This document shows, one piece after another, positions 9,507 to 50,584 of a DNA stretch of 64,000 nucleotides. The notes below the pieces were generated by a model. It was not told where the DNA came from and did not search any database. It saw only the letters and a program-made list of their open reading frames with translations. Made by a program: the position numbers and the translations under genes. Each line of letters begins with the position of its first letter. Position 1 is the first letter of the stretch. This DNA is from Alphaproteobacteria bacterium (GTDB lineage: Bacteria; Pseudomonadota; Alphaproteobacteria; Micavibrionales; UBA2020): positions 1,035,043 through 1,099,042 of the forward strand of contig JAICWS010000002.1 of NCBI GenBank assembly GCA_025934695.1. Reading direction: 5' to 3'.

Positions 9507-10331
9507 TCAGTACAGCTTGTATCCCGGTCCCGTGCCGTAGGTTTTTACCTTGCCGGTCTGCAGGTCGATATGCGGGCCGGTGCAGGCGCCGGTGCAGATC
9601 GGCGATGAATCAGAATGGCTGCGGGACGCGGGCCTTTCGCCGCTGTCGTCGGCTGGTTGCTGTTCCGGCTGCGCGCCAGAGCCGGGTGACGCCGCCGCGC
9701 GTTTGGGTTTCGCCGCGCCGTCGATGGAAGTGATTTTGTCGATGCCGCCACTTATCCGCGCGCCGGTTGTGGTCTCAAAGGTTTCCTTGTAGTCGGCGGT
9801 ATAGAGCCCATCCGTCGCCTTGGCGCGCACGAGATATGTGGCCGCCATCGGGGACGTGCAGGTGGTGCCGGTGTAGACAGCGCCGACGCTTGGTTCGTCG
9901 TAACCGCCCAGCACCGTAAATTCCATGTCCGTGAATTTGCGCCGCGCGTCGGCATCGAATTTGGCGCGGAGGTCGGCCATGATTTTCCCCGCCGTTCCAT
10001 CGCTGGGGCGGAAATTACAGTAATATGTGTCAAAGCTATTGTGCTGGATCCAGTAACTGCCTGTGTACAACAGCCCGTCGTCTTGCTTCGACGCCATGAT
10101 CACGCGGCAGCCGCTATCGTCTTCCCAAGTATAGTCGCAGCTGTCGGTTTTGATCAGCGTGGCGCCATGGGTTTCAAAATAGGTCTTCGCACTTGCGATG
10201 ACCTGTCCAGCCGTCGGACGCGCTTTCTCGGGCGCCGGATTGGCTGCATCAGGCTTGCTGCTGCAGCCGGAAAGAAGCGCGGCAGATGCAAAGGCTGCGG
10301 TCAAAAAAGTTTTCTTCAATGAAGAGCGCAT
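9507..10331 (-). CDS. putative lipoprotein of unknown function
   Basis: 274 residues. The N-terminus is a lipoprotein signal, KKTFLTAAFASAALLSGC, with the modified Cys at 23 (lipobox LSGC). The mature part has several cysteines that could form disulfides (SCDYTWEDDSGC, YYCNF, TTC and CTGAC near the end) and a beta-rich core without a recognised domain. AGGTG precedes the start. The gene has a near-consensus promoter (10494-10522) and a roughly 160-base leader carrying the folded element described at 10383-10471. It is the first gene of a two-gene unit with 8873. Confidence 0.75.
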   Translation of the reverse strand: MRSSLKKTFLTAAFASAALLSGCSSKPDAANPAPEKARPTAGQVIASAKTYFETHGATLIKTDSCDYTWEDDSGCRVIMASKQDDGLLYTGSYWIQHNSFDTYYCNFRPSDGTAGKIMADLRAKFDADARRKFTDMEFTVLGGYDEPSVGAVYTGTTCTSPMAATYLVRAKATDGLYTADYKETFETTTGARISGGIDKITSIDGAAKPKRAAASPGSGAQPEQQPADDSGERPASRSHSDSSPICTGACTGPHIDLQTGKVKTYGTGPGYKLY

Positions 10332-10382
10332 GGCTCACCTCAATAAAAGAGGGGCAGTCATGCATGATGGTGGGAAACATGA

Positions 10383-10471
10383 ACAGCCCGGGATTATTCT
10401 TGTCACTCGGGCCGTTTTTGCAGGTTGCGCATAAAACCGTCAGGCGCGAAACAGGCGAAATTGCACTGACG
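10383..10471 (-). promoter_or_regulatory. structured 5' leader element, copy A
   Basis: This leader lies between the promoter at 10522 and the lipoprotein start at 10331. In transcript sense it has a hairpin CGTCAG...CTGACG (10471-10438) with an inner GC/GC pair and the loop AATTTCGCCTGTTTC. After CCTGCAAAAACGGCCCG a second hairpin pairs ACGGCCCG with CGGGCTGT (10415-10383). Copies B, F and I (14183, 50032, 33994) share the architecture and loop consensus but have different stem sequences. The similarity to copy F runs over roughly 90 bases. The second hairpin lacks a long T-tract here, so termination would be weak. Confidence 0.6.
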
Positions 10472-10493
10472 TAGCGGCGCATTGCGTGGGATG

Positions 10494-10522
10494 TTTATAG
10501 CGGCTTTTTATGGTTATGTCAA
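10494..10522 (-). promoter_or_regulatory. near-consensus sigma-70 promoter (TTGACA-N17-TATAAA)
   Basis: On the minus strand TTGACA (10522-10517) and TATAAA (10499-10494) are separated by exactly 17 bp. It points to the lipoprotein gene at 10331. Confidence 0.8.
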
Positions 10523-13839: not shown

Positions 13840-14154
13840 CTAGAACGACGCCATCAATAGCATGATGCCGATGCCGGCGGCCGCGCCGCCTTTCCATTCG
13901 CGGCGCTCGATGTCTTCGCGGGTCAGCAGCGCCTGCTGCTCTTCGAGCGTGCAGGGCATGTTCTTCCAGTGCAGCTTGTCTTCGCATGTTTGCGCGGCAT
14001 GCATGACGGCCGCCTGTTTATGCTCGTCCACTTTCGCGCTGGCGAAATTGTAAACGCCGGTGATGCCGGTGGTCAGGAGAACGGCCATCGATCCGAGGCC
14101 GACGAGTCTTTTGACGGGAAGCTTGGGAGGTTTCGGAATTCTCGGGAGTTTCAT
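13840..14154 (-). CDS. small two-helix membrane protein, unknown
   Basis: 104 residues. A basic, Pro-rich start (KLPRIPKPPKLPVKR) precedes a transmembrane helix at about 18-38, then a soluble middle with two Cys (TCEDKLHWKNMPCTLEE). A short hydrophobic C-terminal helix (GGAAAGIGIMLLMASF) ends the protein. I know no family. It has a strong promoter at 14262-14290 and leader element copy B between promoter and start. This links its control to the genes at 9507, 34130 and 50189. Confidence 0.65.
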   Translation of the reverse strand: MKLPRIPKPPKLPVKRLVGLGSMAVLLTTGITGVYNFASAKVDEHKQAAVMHAAQTCEDKLHWKNMPCTLEEQQALLTREDIERREWKGGAAAGIGIMLLMASF

Positions 14155-14182: not shown

Positions 14183-14239
14183 CGGCTGTTTCAGCCGGGC
14201 GGGAACTGACAGGCAAGAAACAGGCAAAATCGCTCTGTC
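14183..14239 (-). promoter_or_regulatory. structured 5' leader element, copy B
   Basis: In transcript sense GACAG pairs with CTGTC (14239-14208) around an unpaired A, a GC/GC inner stem and the loop GATTTTGCCTGTTTCTT. A second hairpin CGGCTG-aaa-CAGCCG follows (14197-14183). On the plus strand 14204-14237 matches copy A (10435-10468) at 27 of 34 positions, and the changed stem positions keep pairing. Confidence 0.6.
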
Positions 14240-14261
14240 GTGGATACCCAGCGTGGCGGTA

Positions 14262-14290
14262 TCTATAAGAGGTCTGGAATTATATGTCAA
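14262..14290 (-). promoter_or_regulatory. sigma-70 promoter (TTGACA-N17-TATAGA)
   Basis: TTGACA at 14290-14285 and TATAGA at 14267-14262 on the minus strand with a 17 bp spacer, upstream of the small membrane protein at 14154. Confidence 0.75.
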
Positions 14291-18893: not shown

Positions 18894-18922
18894 TTGACAT
18901 AATATTTACAGCCATATATGAT
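18894..18922 (+). promoter_or_regulatory. sigma-70 promoter (TTGACA-N17-TATGAT)
   Basis: TTGACA at 18894-18899 and TATGAT at 18917-18922 with a 17 bp spacer, about 40 bp upstream of the small gene at 18964. Confidence 0.75.
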
Positions 18923-33942: not shown

Positions 33943-33971
33943 TTGACAATCCTTTAGCCGCAGAATATACA
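33943..33971 (+). promoter_or_regulatory. sigma-70 promoter (TTGACA-N17-TATACA)
   Basis: TTGACA at 33943-33948 and TATACA at 33966-33971, 17 bp apart, opening a leader of about 150 bases to the gene at 34130. Confidence 0.75.
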
Positions 33972-33993
33972 TAAAGCCGCAGGCCGAAGCCAT

Positions 33994-34037
33994 GCTCCGG
34001 GGCGGTTTTCCAGCGAAGTTTCTCGCCCCGCCGGAGC
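33994..34037 (+). promoter_or_regulatory. structured 5' leader element, copy I
   Basis: GCTCCGG (33994-34000) pairs with CCGGAGC (34031-34037). A 3-base bulge and an inner GGCG/CGCC stem enclose the loop GTTTTCCAGCGAAGTTTCT (34005-34023). The loop has the same TTTTCC...GTTTC form as copies A, B and F, and GTTTC lies 46 bases after the -10 box. CCTGTAAAACTCC follows, resembling the CCTGnAAAACnGCC of the other copies. This is the most diverged copy. Confidence 0.5.
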
Positions 34038-34129
34038 GGACCTGATTGTCCCGCCACGCCTGTAAAACTCCACGCCGACAAGCACGGCCTTCTTTCGAGG
34101 GCCGCACGCAACGGATGAGGAGTTTTGCC

Positions 34130-34819
34130 ATGGGCCGCTTTTTCGACCGCATCAATTTCGTCAAGCGCCGCCGTGCGGCGAAGGCGCAAAGCCAGCAGCA
34201 GCAGGCGCGCGTCGTCGCCGCCTTCGACGAAGAGCTGCGTGAATTCATGGAGGAGAGGCTCGCCACGCCCGATCCGGTCGCGCGTTATATCGCGCTGTCC
34301 GACCTGCCGCGCGTTTTCGAGGCGCGCTGCGGCCATCTCCAGGAACAGGAATTCAAGCGGCTGGCGAAGAAAAGCGGCGACAGGATGATGACCGTCATGA
34401 AATGCGGCGGGGTCGCGGGCGTCGGCATGGCCGTGGGCTTCGGCCTCGCCTTCGGGCCGGCTGCCGCGCTCTTCGGCGCCTTTGCGGGCGCGCTGGTCGC
34501 GGCAGCCCCCGGCGTGGATGTGACTGGCGACCCGCTGGCGGGAGAAAGAGAAGCAGCGGCCCGCTTCGCCGCGCCGTTCCGCGACTGCGTCGACAAATAC
34601 CGGGCCGAGATCGGCGGCCTCTGCGCGCGCCTCGAAGACGAACATCTTGACACCTTCGCGGCATCGAAGGAATGGAGCCGGCTTACCGTCATCAACCCTG
34701 GCCTGTATAAAAAAGCCAGCGACGCGTTCCGCGCCAGCGTCGCCAAACGCGCGGATGCGCCGCCCGCCACGCCTGCCGCGCCGCCGCCCGCGCCGCCGCA
34801 AAAGGGCTTTTCCCTGTAA
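34130..34819 (+). CDS. uncharacterised membrane-hairpin protein with Pro-rich tail
   Basis: 229 residues. A basic helical N-terminus (INFVKRRRAAKAQSQQQQAR) precedes a Gly/Ala-rich hydrophobic hairpin (about 93-125, GVAGVGMAVGFGLAFGPAAA...). A helical domain follows, then a Pro/Ala tail ending PPPAPPQKGFSL. The layout resembles 8873 and, more loosely, 24817, and the ...SL ending recurs. The ATG at 34130 has GAGGAG eight bases upstream; the ATG at 34115 overlaps that site. It is preceded by a promoter and leader element copy I. Function unknown. Confidence 0.65.
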   Translation: MGRFFDRINFVKRRRAAKAQSQQQQARVVAAFDEELREFMEERLATPDPVARYIALSDLPRVFEARCGHLQEQEFKRLAKKSGDRMMTVMKCGGVAGVGMAVGFGLAFGPAAALFGAFAGALVAAAPGVDVTGDPLAGEREAAARFAAPFRDCVDKYRAEIGGLCARLEDEHLDTFAASKEWSRLTVINPGLYKKASDAFRASVAKRADAPPATPAAPPPAPPQKGFSL

Positions 34820-49980: not shown

Positions 49981-50010
49981 TTGACATAATCACGCAGAAT
50001 CGGATATAAC
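49981..50010 (+). promoter_or_regulatory. sigma-70 promoter (TTGACA-N18-TATAAC)
   Basis: TTGACA at 49981-49986 and TATAAC at 50005-50010. The intergenic space is shared with the divergent XRE regulator. Confidence 0.75.
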
Positions 50011-50031
50011 AGAGATGTACAGGACGCAACT

Positions 50032-50125
50032 ACCGGCCCGGCGTTTTCCGCTTGTTTCCCGCCCACGGTCCACTTGGCGATCCTGCTAAAACAGCCCGTG
50101 AATGATATTCGGGGCTGTTTTTTTT
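50032..50125 (+). ncRNA. structured leader element copy F with its own terminator
   Basis: Hairpin 1: ACCG (50032) pairs with CGGT (50066-50069); an internal loop and GGCG/CGCC inner stem enclose TTTTCCGCTTGTTTCC (50044-50059). CCTGCTAAAACAGCCC follows. Hairpin 2 pairs AAAACAGCCC (50088-50097) with GGGCTGTTTT (50112-50121) and runs into T's, a full intrinsic terminator 64 bp before the gene at 50189. Transcription from 49981 would therefore give an RNA of about 110 bases, with read-through to the gene. It is either a small RNA or an attenuator. It aligns with copy A over about 90 bases. Confidence 0.6.
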
Positions 50126-50188
50126 ATGCGGCGGATTTCCCTTCACGGATGAAAGAAATGCGACCAAGTAACCCAATGGAGGATGACA

Positions 50189-50584
50189 ATGGCAAGACTT
50201 ACGAAACTGAAGCTTCTGGAAGCTTTCACCGGCGCGGCTGCGGCAAAGCAGGGCGGCAAGATTATCTTCTCTCCACTCGATCAGGGGCGGGCGGGGGAGC
50301 TCGTCGGCAAGTTGCTGGATGCGGGCGTGCTGCAGCGCGGCGCGGTCACCGGCGTCTCGGAGATCCGTGAACCGGTAAGCCCTCTCGACGGCATGGACAC
50401 CCGCTACATGTCGCCGGAGCAAACGGCGCGCATACGCCAGGAACGCAGCTATCCCCAGATCTACAGGAACGTGGTTACTTTCGTTCCCGTCGACAAGGCC
50501 GATATTTCCTTTGACGGTCCGGCGCGTACGCTTGCGGTGAGCGCAAAAAAAATCAGCACGGCGTCCATACAGCGAAAGAAATAG
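50189..50584 (+). CDS. uncharacterised protein behind structured leader
   Basis: 131 residues, basic and soluble (LTKLKLLEAFTGAAAAKQGGKIIFSPLDQGRAGELVGKLLDAGVLQRG ... PVDKADISFDGPARTLAVSAKK). No family recognised. GGAGG lies six bases before the ATG at 50189; an ATG at 50183 overlaps that site. The only promoter seen (49981) is separated from it by leader copy F and a terminator, so expression probably depends on read-through. Confidence 0.6.
   Translation: MARLTKLKLLEAFTGAAAAKQGGKIIFSPLDQGRAGELVGKLLDAGVLQRGAVTGVSEIREPVSPLDGMDTRYMSPEQTARIRQERSYPQIYRNVVTFVPVDKADISFDGPARTLAVSAKKISTASIQRKK

Follow-up and report, generated by a model that had tools for sequence, protein, structure and literature searches.

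A promoter-coupled family of structured leader RNAs in a Micavibrionales genome: a candidate orphan riboswitch

Introduction

Do the four short leaders that lie behind TTGACA–TATA promoters in this 64,000-nucleotide stretch of a Micavibrionales genome (the window) belong to one functional RNA, and what would that RNA do for the genes behind it? The window lies on contig C2 of a 4.13-Mb genome (G000), and the leaders are referred to as A, B, I, and F. A 16S fragment shows at most 88.5% identity to plasmid-borne copies, the best of which are from Alphaproteobacteria, and so supports an assignment to this class. An initial annotation of the window had described them as a four-copy family of structured RNAs preceding small genes. 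All promoters, loops, and stems of the four leaders were found where that annotation placed them, but the family is far larger, with about 50 copies of one folded leader RNA in the genome. It is a genuine structured leader family that we did not find described, and its most fitting label is that of a candidate orphan riboswitch. The reading that we favor, with a probability of roughly two in three, is a riboswitch-like class of cis-regulatory RNA in which a signal that stabilizes a pseudoknot would turn genes on.

Results

Size and distribution of the family

Covariance model R1 was built from nine copies, leader A among them, that were aligned by sequence alone (MAFFT), and models R2 and R3 were built from 51 and 101 copies, respectively. 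R1 matched three of the window's leaders (A, B, and F; Table 1) and 36 places in the whole genome at E ≤ 1. R2 gave 49 matches in the genome at E ≤ 0.1, to which R3 added, at E ≤ 0.01, five further insert-bearing variants behind the same type of promoter. Of the 17 further genomes in the host's taxonomic family, nine carry between 1 and 17 copies according to R2, and each of that family's four genera has at least one match, the sole match in one of them (g3) being weak (E 0.09). R3 found a single copy in each of two genomes from a second family of the same order. The leader family spans two families of one order, and the search of the genome and its relatives that the initial annotation had proposed did return further copies.

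Searches of a class sample (385 genomes) and a phylum sample (398 genomes), run with stricter filters that lose weak matches, gave matches solely in the window's own genome. A pattern scan yielded 19 matches in 84,980 species genomes, 3 in viral contigs, none of which the model confirmed. With Rfam 15 (4227 models), the window gave only tRNA at gathering thresholds, and at E ≤ 1 no match overlapped the leader core at 16 leader loci, an outcome in favor of the annotation, which had proposed this search. Within the literature library searched, no account of such an RNA turned up. Many of the leaders cluster at approximately 830 to 1175 kb of contig C3 of G000, which points to a stretch with many accessory genes.

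Two helices supported by comparison

In the leader RNA, an inner helix, P2 (such as CGGCAG-UCG with CGA-CUGCCG), is nested within an outer helix, P1 (such as GCA-GGCGC with GCGCC-UGC or GCG-GAGAG with CUCUC-CGC). Across the 101 copies, whose alignment was fitted to the structure, standard pairs occupy 89.4% of the P1 and P2 cells, compared with 71.5% after shuffling and 17 to 57% when the arms are slid; two-sided changes number 240, compared with 58 after shuffling. Given the same structure, the nine-sequence alignment made by sequence alone points in the same direction (88.8% paired versus 79.5%). By these comparisons, P1 and P2 covary strongly and are established as helices. The significant covariation and the many further copies support the earlier proposal of a function at the RNA level. 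That proposal was right about P2 and its loop and missed both P1 and the start of the RNA. The insert-bearing variants (L150, L170, L171, L172, and L181) have an additional hairpin in their 5' part and a P2 of the GUGCCGGAYGG type.

Promoter coupling

A rigidly spaced TTGACATAAT/TATA promoter heads each RNA, and comparison of the copies establishes this coupling. The pattern TTGACA, 16 to 19 bases, TATA, and then GTTTC occurs at 29 places in the genome, with one copy counted twice, whereas the reversed pattern, used as a control, occurs nowhere. TTGACA lies within 60 nucleotides of 82 of the 101 leaders and, in 59 of these, at 34 or 35 nucleotides upstream of the first conserved base; this spacing implies that the RNA begins at about +1. 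Leader promoters have spacers of 15 to 18 bases and TATA-like −10 boxes.

The TTGACATAA-TATA promoter occurs 75 times in G000 (control, 0). It is strikingly enriched and heads mostly small orphan genes, with or without a leader, and the bases 3' of its −35 box (TAAT/TAAC) are kept beyond the normal box. Most of the leaderless examples that were fetched lead straight into small genes, several of which are of the leucine-rich or orphan type.

An invariant core that could form a pseudoknot

The helices vary freely, unlike the unpaired strands. In the loop that caps P2, the 5' side has UU in 101/101 copies and the 3' side has UUUC in 100/101; 3' of P1, an AAAC tail is kept in nearly all copies. 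The loop UU, the loop UUC, and A149 of the tail are invariant, and the remainder of UUU, GUUUC, and AAAC is nearly so. GUUU could pair with AAAC, which would create an H-type pseudoknot, and the UUU strand is positioned such that it could add U·A-U major-groove triples. One copy (L052) has a compensatory change, GCUU/AAGC, that preserves the putative pseudoknot pair; two further copies have a U-G pair, and the insert-bearing L150 likewise reads AAAGC.

Copies with long loops have an extra apical stem between the UUU and GUUUC strands, turning these into a U-rich internal loop. When defined as at least three Watson–Crick pairs, the stem is found in 15 of the 26 longer loops (shuffle mean 3.5; reached in 0 of 1000 shuffles). 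A first test, allowing G-U pairs in 4-base-pair stems, had given 8 of 26 versus 5.7 expected, i.e., no signal; hence, the result depends on the second definition.

The tail is shared with a downstream hairpin

The AAACNNCC tail also forms one side, the 5' arm, of a hairpin located downstream, the 3' arm of which bears a U-run or a ribosome-binding site. For the five bases after AAA, a perfect 5-base-pair partner is found downstream in 60 of 98 leaders, compared with 12.7 (maximum 24) for shuffled flanks and 36 (maximum 47) when tails are swapped among leaders. The excess over swapped tails indicates that tail and arm change together, and comparison establishes such pairs (CAGCC/GGCUG, CAACC/GGUUG, CAUCC/GGAUG, and CCAAC/GUUGG). 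The partner lies at a median offset of 20 nucleotides from the tail (middle half, 18–22), and start codons are commonest at 25 to 30 nucleotides, or at 80 nucleotides or more, after the tail.

Two expression platforms, corresponding to these two spacings, can be distinguished. In nine copies of the short type, the 3' arm carries a ribosome-binding-like site and ends 2 to 6 nucleotides before the start codon, a design shared by leader I and by the two copies from the second family (L147 and L148). The long type has a terminator-like hairpin, which is canonical in F and L018 (eight U) and weak in most others. Several of the lock hairpins have high predicted stability, with folding energies of −10 to −33 kcal/mol.

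Genes behind the leaders

The placement of the leaders before genes is likewise established by comparison: all 101 are followed by an open reading frame (ORF) of at least 45 codons, with a median product of 160 amino acids, and 87 have a Shine–Dalgarno-like site. Pfam matches are few among 91 downstream proteins, comprising five ankyrin proteins, two alpha/beta hydrolases, one nicotinate phosphoribosyltransferase, and single weak others. With most proteins lacking a family, these data support the regulon that the initial annotation had suggested. A leucine-rich repeat family, PGDLDLS..LPDLS..V.G.F.C..N.LTSLEGAP, recurs at L021, L048, L018, L051, L059, L125, L158, and L173, and MORN-like as well as ankyrin proteins are found behind these promoters. 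Behind both out-of-family copies lie genes whose products, judged by eye, look secreted. Between L002 and its nicotinate/nicotinamide phosphoribosyltransferase gene lies a second TTGACA promoter, and this gene probably has a promoter of its own.

The four leaders in the window

The features of the window are listed in Table 1. For leaders A (folded as a lone strand) and F, the minimum-free-energy structure includes both helices, P1 and P2, together with the tail hairpin in A and the terminator in F. Leader I escapes R1 in the window and gives a 14.7-bit partial match with R3, covering the P2 part only; it is too divergent for the models yet has every part in the same plan, including P1 (GCAGGC/GCCUGU) and P2 (GCUCCGG/CCGGAGC). 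Its lock hairpin covers the ribosome-binding site GAGGAG ahead of the ATG at 34130. Genes similar to those behind A and B also bear leaders in G002 (L135) and G001 (L069), respectively.

Two details of the initial annotation needed revision. The motif CCTGnAAAACnGCC, assigned to all four leaders, is found in A and F, whereas the corresponding sequence is CGGCTGAAACAGCC in B and CCTGTAAAACTCC in I. The "second hairpin" does exist, as the partner structure of the AAAAC tail, but it varies: F has a canonical terminator with eight U, I a ribosome-binding-site lock, and A a weak U-run, and in B the tail folds upstream.

Table 1. Leaders, promoters, and downstream genes in the window (window positions)
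Feature	Position	Strand	Details
Leader A promoter	10494–10522	−	TTGACA 10522–10517, TATAAA 10499–10494
Leader A RNA	10410–10488	−	P1 GCA.UGCGC/GCGCA..UGC, P2 CGUCAG/CUGACG, loop AUUU..GUUUC, tail AAAAAC; R1 85 bits, E 1.2e-18
Leader A tail hairpin	10381–10419	−	AAAACGGCCCG/CGGGCUGUU, U-run weak
Gene behind leader A	9507–10331	−	274 amino acids, lipoprotein-like orphan; no Pfam or NCBIfam match
Leader B promoter	14264–14290	−	TTGACATA..TATA
Leader B RNA	14184–14255	−	Tail CUGAAACAGCC; R1 48.5 bits, E 1.2e-9
Leader B alternative hairpin	14183–14197	−	CGGCUG-AAA-CAGCCG, disrupts P1, tail A's in triloop; centroid structure
Gene behind leader B	13840–14154	−	104 amino acids, orphan
Leaderless promoter	18894–18918	+	TTGACATAAT/TATA, same promoter type, directly before a small ORF
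Leader I promoter	33943–33971	+	TTGACA..TATACA
Leader I RNA	33979–34071	+	Divergent; read by hand
Leader I parts			P1 33979–33984/34058–34063, P2 33994–34004/34024–34037, UUUU 34006–34009, GUUUC 34018–34022, AAAAC 34064–34068
Leader I lock hairpin	34064–34126	+	8 base pairs, AAAACUCC (34064–34071) with GGAGUUUU (34119–34126); fold −33.1 kcal/mol, z −5.2
Gene behind leader I	34130–34819	+	229 amino acids, orphan
Leader F promoter	49981–50010	+	TTGACA 49981–49986, TATAAC 50005–50010
Leader F RNA	50020–50096	+	P1 CAGGACGC/GGCGAUCCUG, P2, UUUU 50044–50047, GUUUC 50054–50058, AAAAC 50088–50092; R1 31.9 bits at 50023–50096
Leader F intrinsic terminator	50088–50123	+	AAAACAGCCC/GGGGCUGUUUUUUUU, 5' arm = tail; fold −17.3 kcal/mol, z −5.2
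Gene behind leader F	50183–50584	+	133 amino acids, orphan ORF

Discussion

As in riboswitches, the RNA is a 5' leader with a conserved structure, placed immediately before genes (101 copies). Since AAAC cannot serve the pseudoknot and the hairpin at once, the best reading is a cis-acting ON switch for some 50 mostly orphan genes. In this switch, the nascent RNA, starting at about +1, would fold P1 and P2, after which GUUU(C) of the loop would pair with the AAAC 3' of P1 to give the H-type pseudoknot, with the UUU strand possibly adding U·A-U triples. Once formed, the pseudoknot would make the tail unavailable to the hairpin; without it, AAACNNCC would pair with the downstream GGNNGUUU, yielding a terminator-like hairpin or one that buries the ribosome-binding site. 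The two folds would thus be mutually exclusive in vivo. Because the hairpin would be the OFF state in both platforms, whatever stabilizes the pseudoknot would act as an activator, and the gene would be ON under either. P1, the pseudoknot option, and the competing hairpin together suggest a mechanism and were absent from the first picture, whose proposal of a structured leader regulon is otherwise supported.

Several observations weigh against this reading. No common function was found among the downstream protein families, nor any hint of a ligand. From the nine-sequence alignment made by sequence alone, RNAalifold predicted P2 and not P1. Support for the pseudoknot is thin because its strands are near-invariant, so that covariation hardly tests the pairing, and the slide control is ambiguous (85% versus 70% at +3); the triplex is suggested by sequence and topology only. 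Only about one-third of the terminator-like hairpins have a U-run of at least 4, and since U-runs are mostly short, transcription termination is uncertain for many copies, A included. A clear downstream hairpin is absent in some copies (e.g., L077 and L081), and leader B departs from both platforms with the hairpin CGGCUG-AAA-CAGCCG, a third arrangement in which P1 is disrupted.

The signal may be a small molecule, by analogy with the commonest precedent rather than as a result, and a protein is possible. The same cis switch could instead respond to a protein, an RNA chaperone (e.g., a binder of U-rich loops), or a trans-acting small RNA. Such a signal, which we consider unlikely though the strongest of the alternatives, fits the U-richness of the conserved unpaired bases, which RNA chaperones like, and a single global regulator would suit some 50 unrelated targets. 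However, no conserved loop stretch exceeds about 5 nucleotides, leaving little for a small RNA to pair with, and neither the AAAC partner nor its use in two exclusive structures requires a protein. There is a slight chance that the hairpin merely melts or is outrun, as in an RNA thermometer or passive folding timer with neither ligand nor pseudoknot function. Ribosome-binding-site hairpins do adjoin start codons, but the strength of several lock hairpins speaks against melting, and such a device would have no need of a conserved 80-nucleotide fold upstream whose loop bases are invariant. Even less probable are free-standing small RNAs that end at the terminator, with the downstream gene incidental: the canonical terminators of F and L018 would suit them, whereas the ORFs and Shine–Dalgarno-like sites behind the leaders would not, and many copies swap the terminator for a ribosome-binding-site hairpin 2 to 6 nucleotides from the start codon. 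A mobile repeat that spreads a promoter–leader cassette and conserves the structure because its mobility depends on it could account for the high copy number, the clustering on contig C3, and the unrelated downstream genes, yet it is very improbable given that copies are highly diverged yet paired, that similar genes in sister species retain the leader, and that platforms are adapted to each gene.

Signal-responsive riboswitches may occur in many copies per genome over diverse genes, as do the cyclic di-GMP (c-di-GMP) classes. The leader is likewise multicopy over diverse genes but differs from these classes in fold and has no Rfam match to them. Its elements follow one another as stem, U strand, GUUU strand, stem, and AAAC, the same topology as in the H-type pseudoknots of guanidine-III (PMC5696562) and of SAM-II and SAM-V (PMC6061858), which contain major-groove triplexes. 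Guanidine-III is described as a translational ON switch (PMC6061858); unlike it, the leader has the outer helix P1, a core signature of U and A only, and about 50 copies per genome, with no Rfam match and no guanidine genes identified. With SAM-II and SAM-V, the leader shares a putative H-type pseudoknot with a major-groove triplex, presumed control of transcription or translation, and occurrence in alphaproteobacteria, from which SAM-II was described, but again there is no Rfam match, and no S-adenosylmethionine (SAM) or methionine genes were seen downstream. Moreover, the bound pseudoknot of SAM-V is the OFF state, whereas that of the leader would be the ON state. A further likeness is to ENE/MALAT1-type elements (PMC12501189, PMC11411715), which have a stem, a U-rich internal loop, an optional apical stem, and a downstream A-tract for possible U·A-U triples. 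Those elements are eukaryotic or viral and protect RNA 3' ends, whereas the RNA described here is a bacterial 5' leader, and its A-tract also belongs to a hairpin that acts as a putative terminator or covers the ribosome-binding site.

More tentatively, and with odds that we put below even, the leaders could be a new class in which a pseudoknot with a U·A-U triplex sequesters the A-tract that its own terminator or ribosome-binding-site hairpin would otherwise use, serving one lineage as a global switch, perhaps for a signaling molecule, over some 50 fast-evolving, often repeat-containing orphan genes. If the ON-switch reading is true, the leaders would be an RNA switch class that Rfam lacks, and its deployment some 50 times within a single genome would be unusual. 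Its invariant UUU, GUUUC, and AAAC are direct and easily mutated sites. Hardly any of the target genes has a known function, although several encode ankyrin, leucine-rich, or MORN-like repeats, and knowledge of the signal would reveal under what conditions, and to what end, the lineage uses them.
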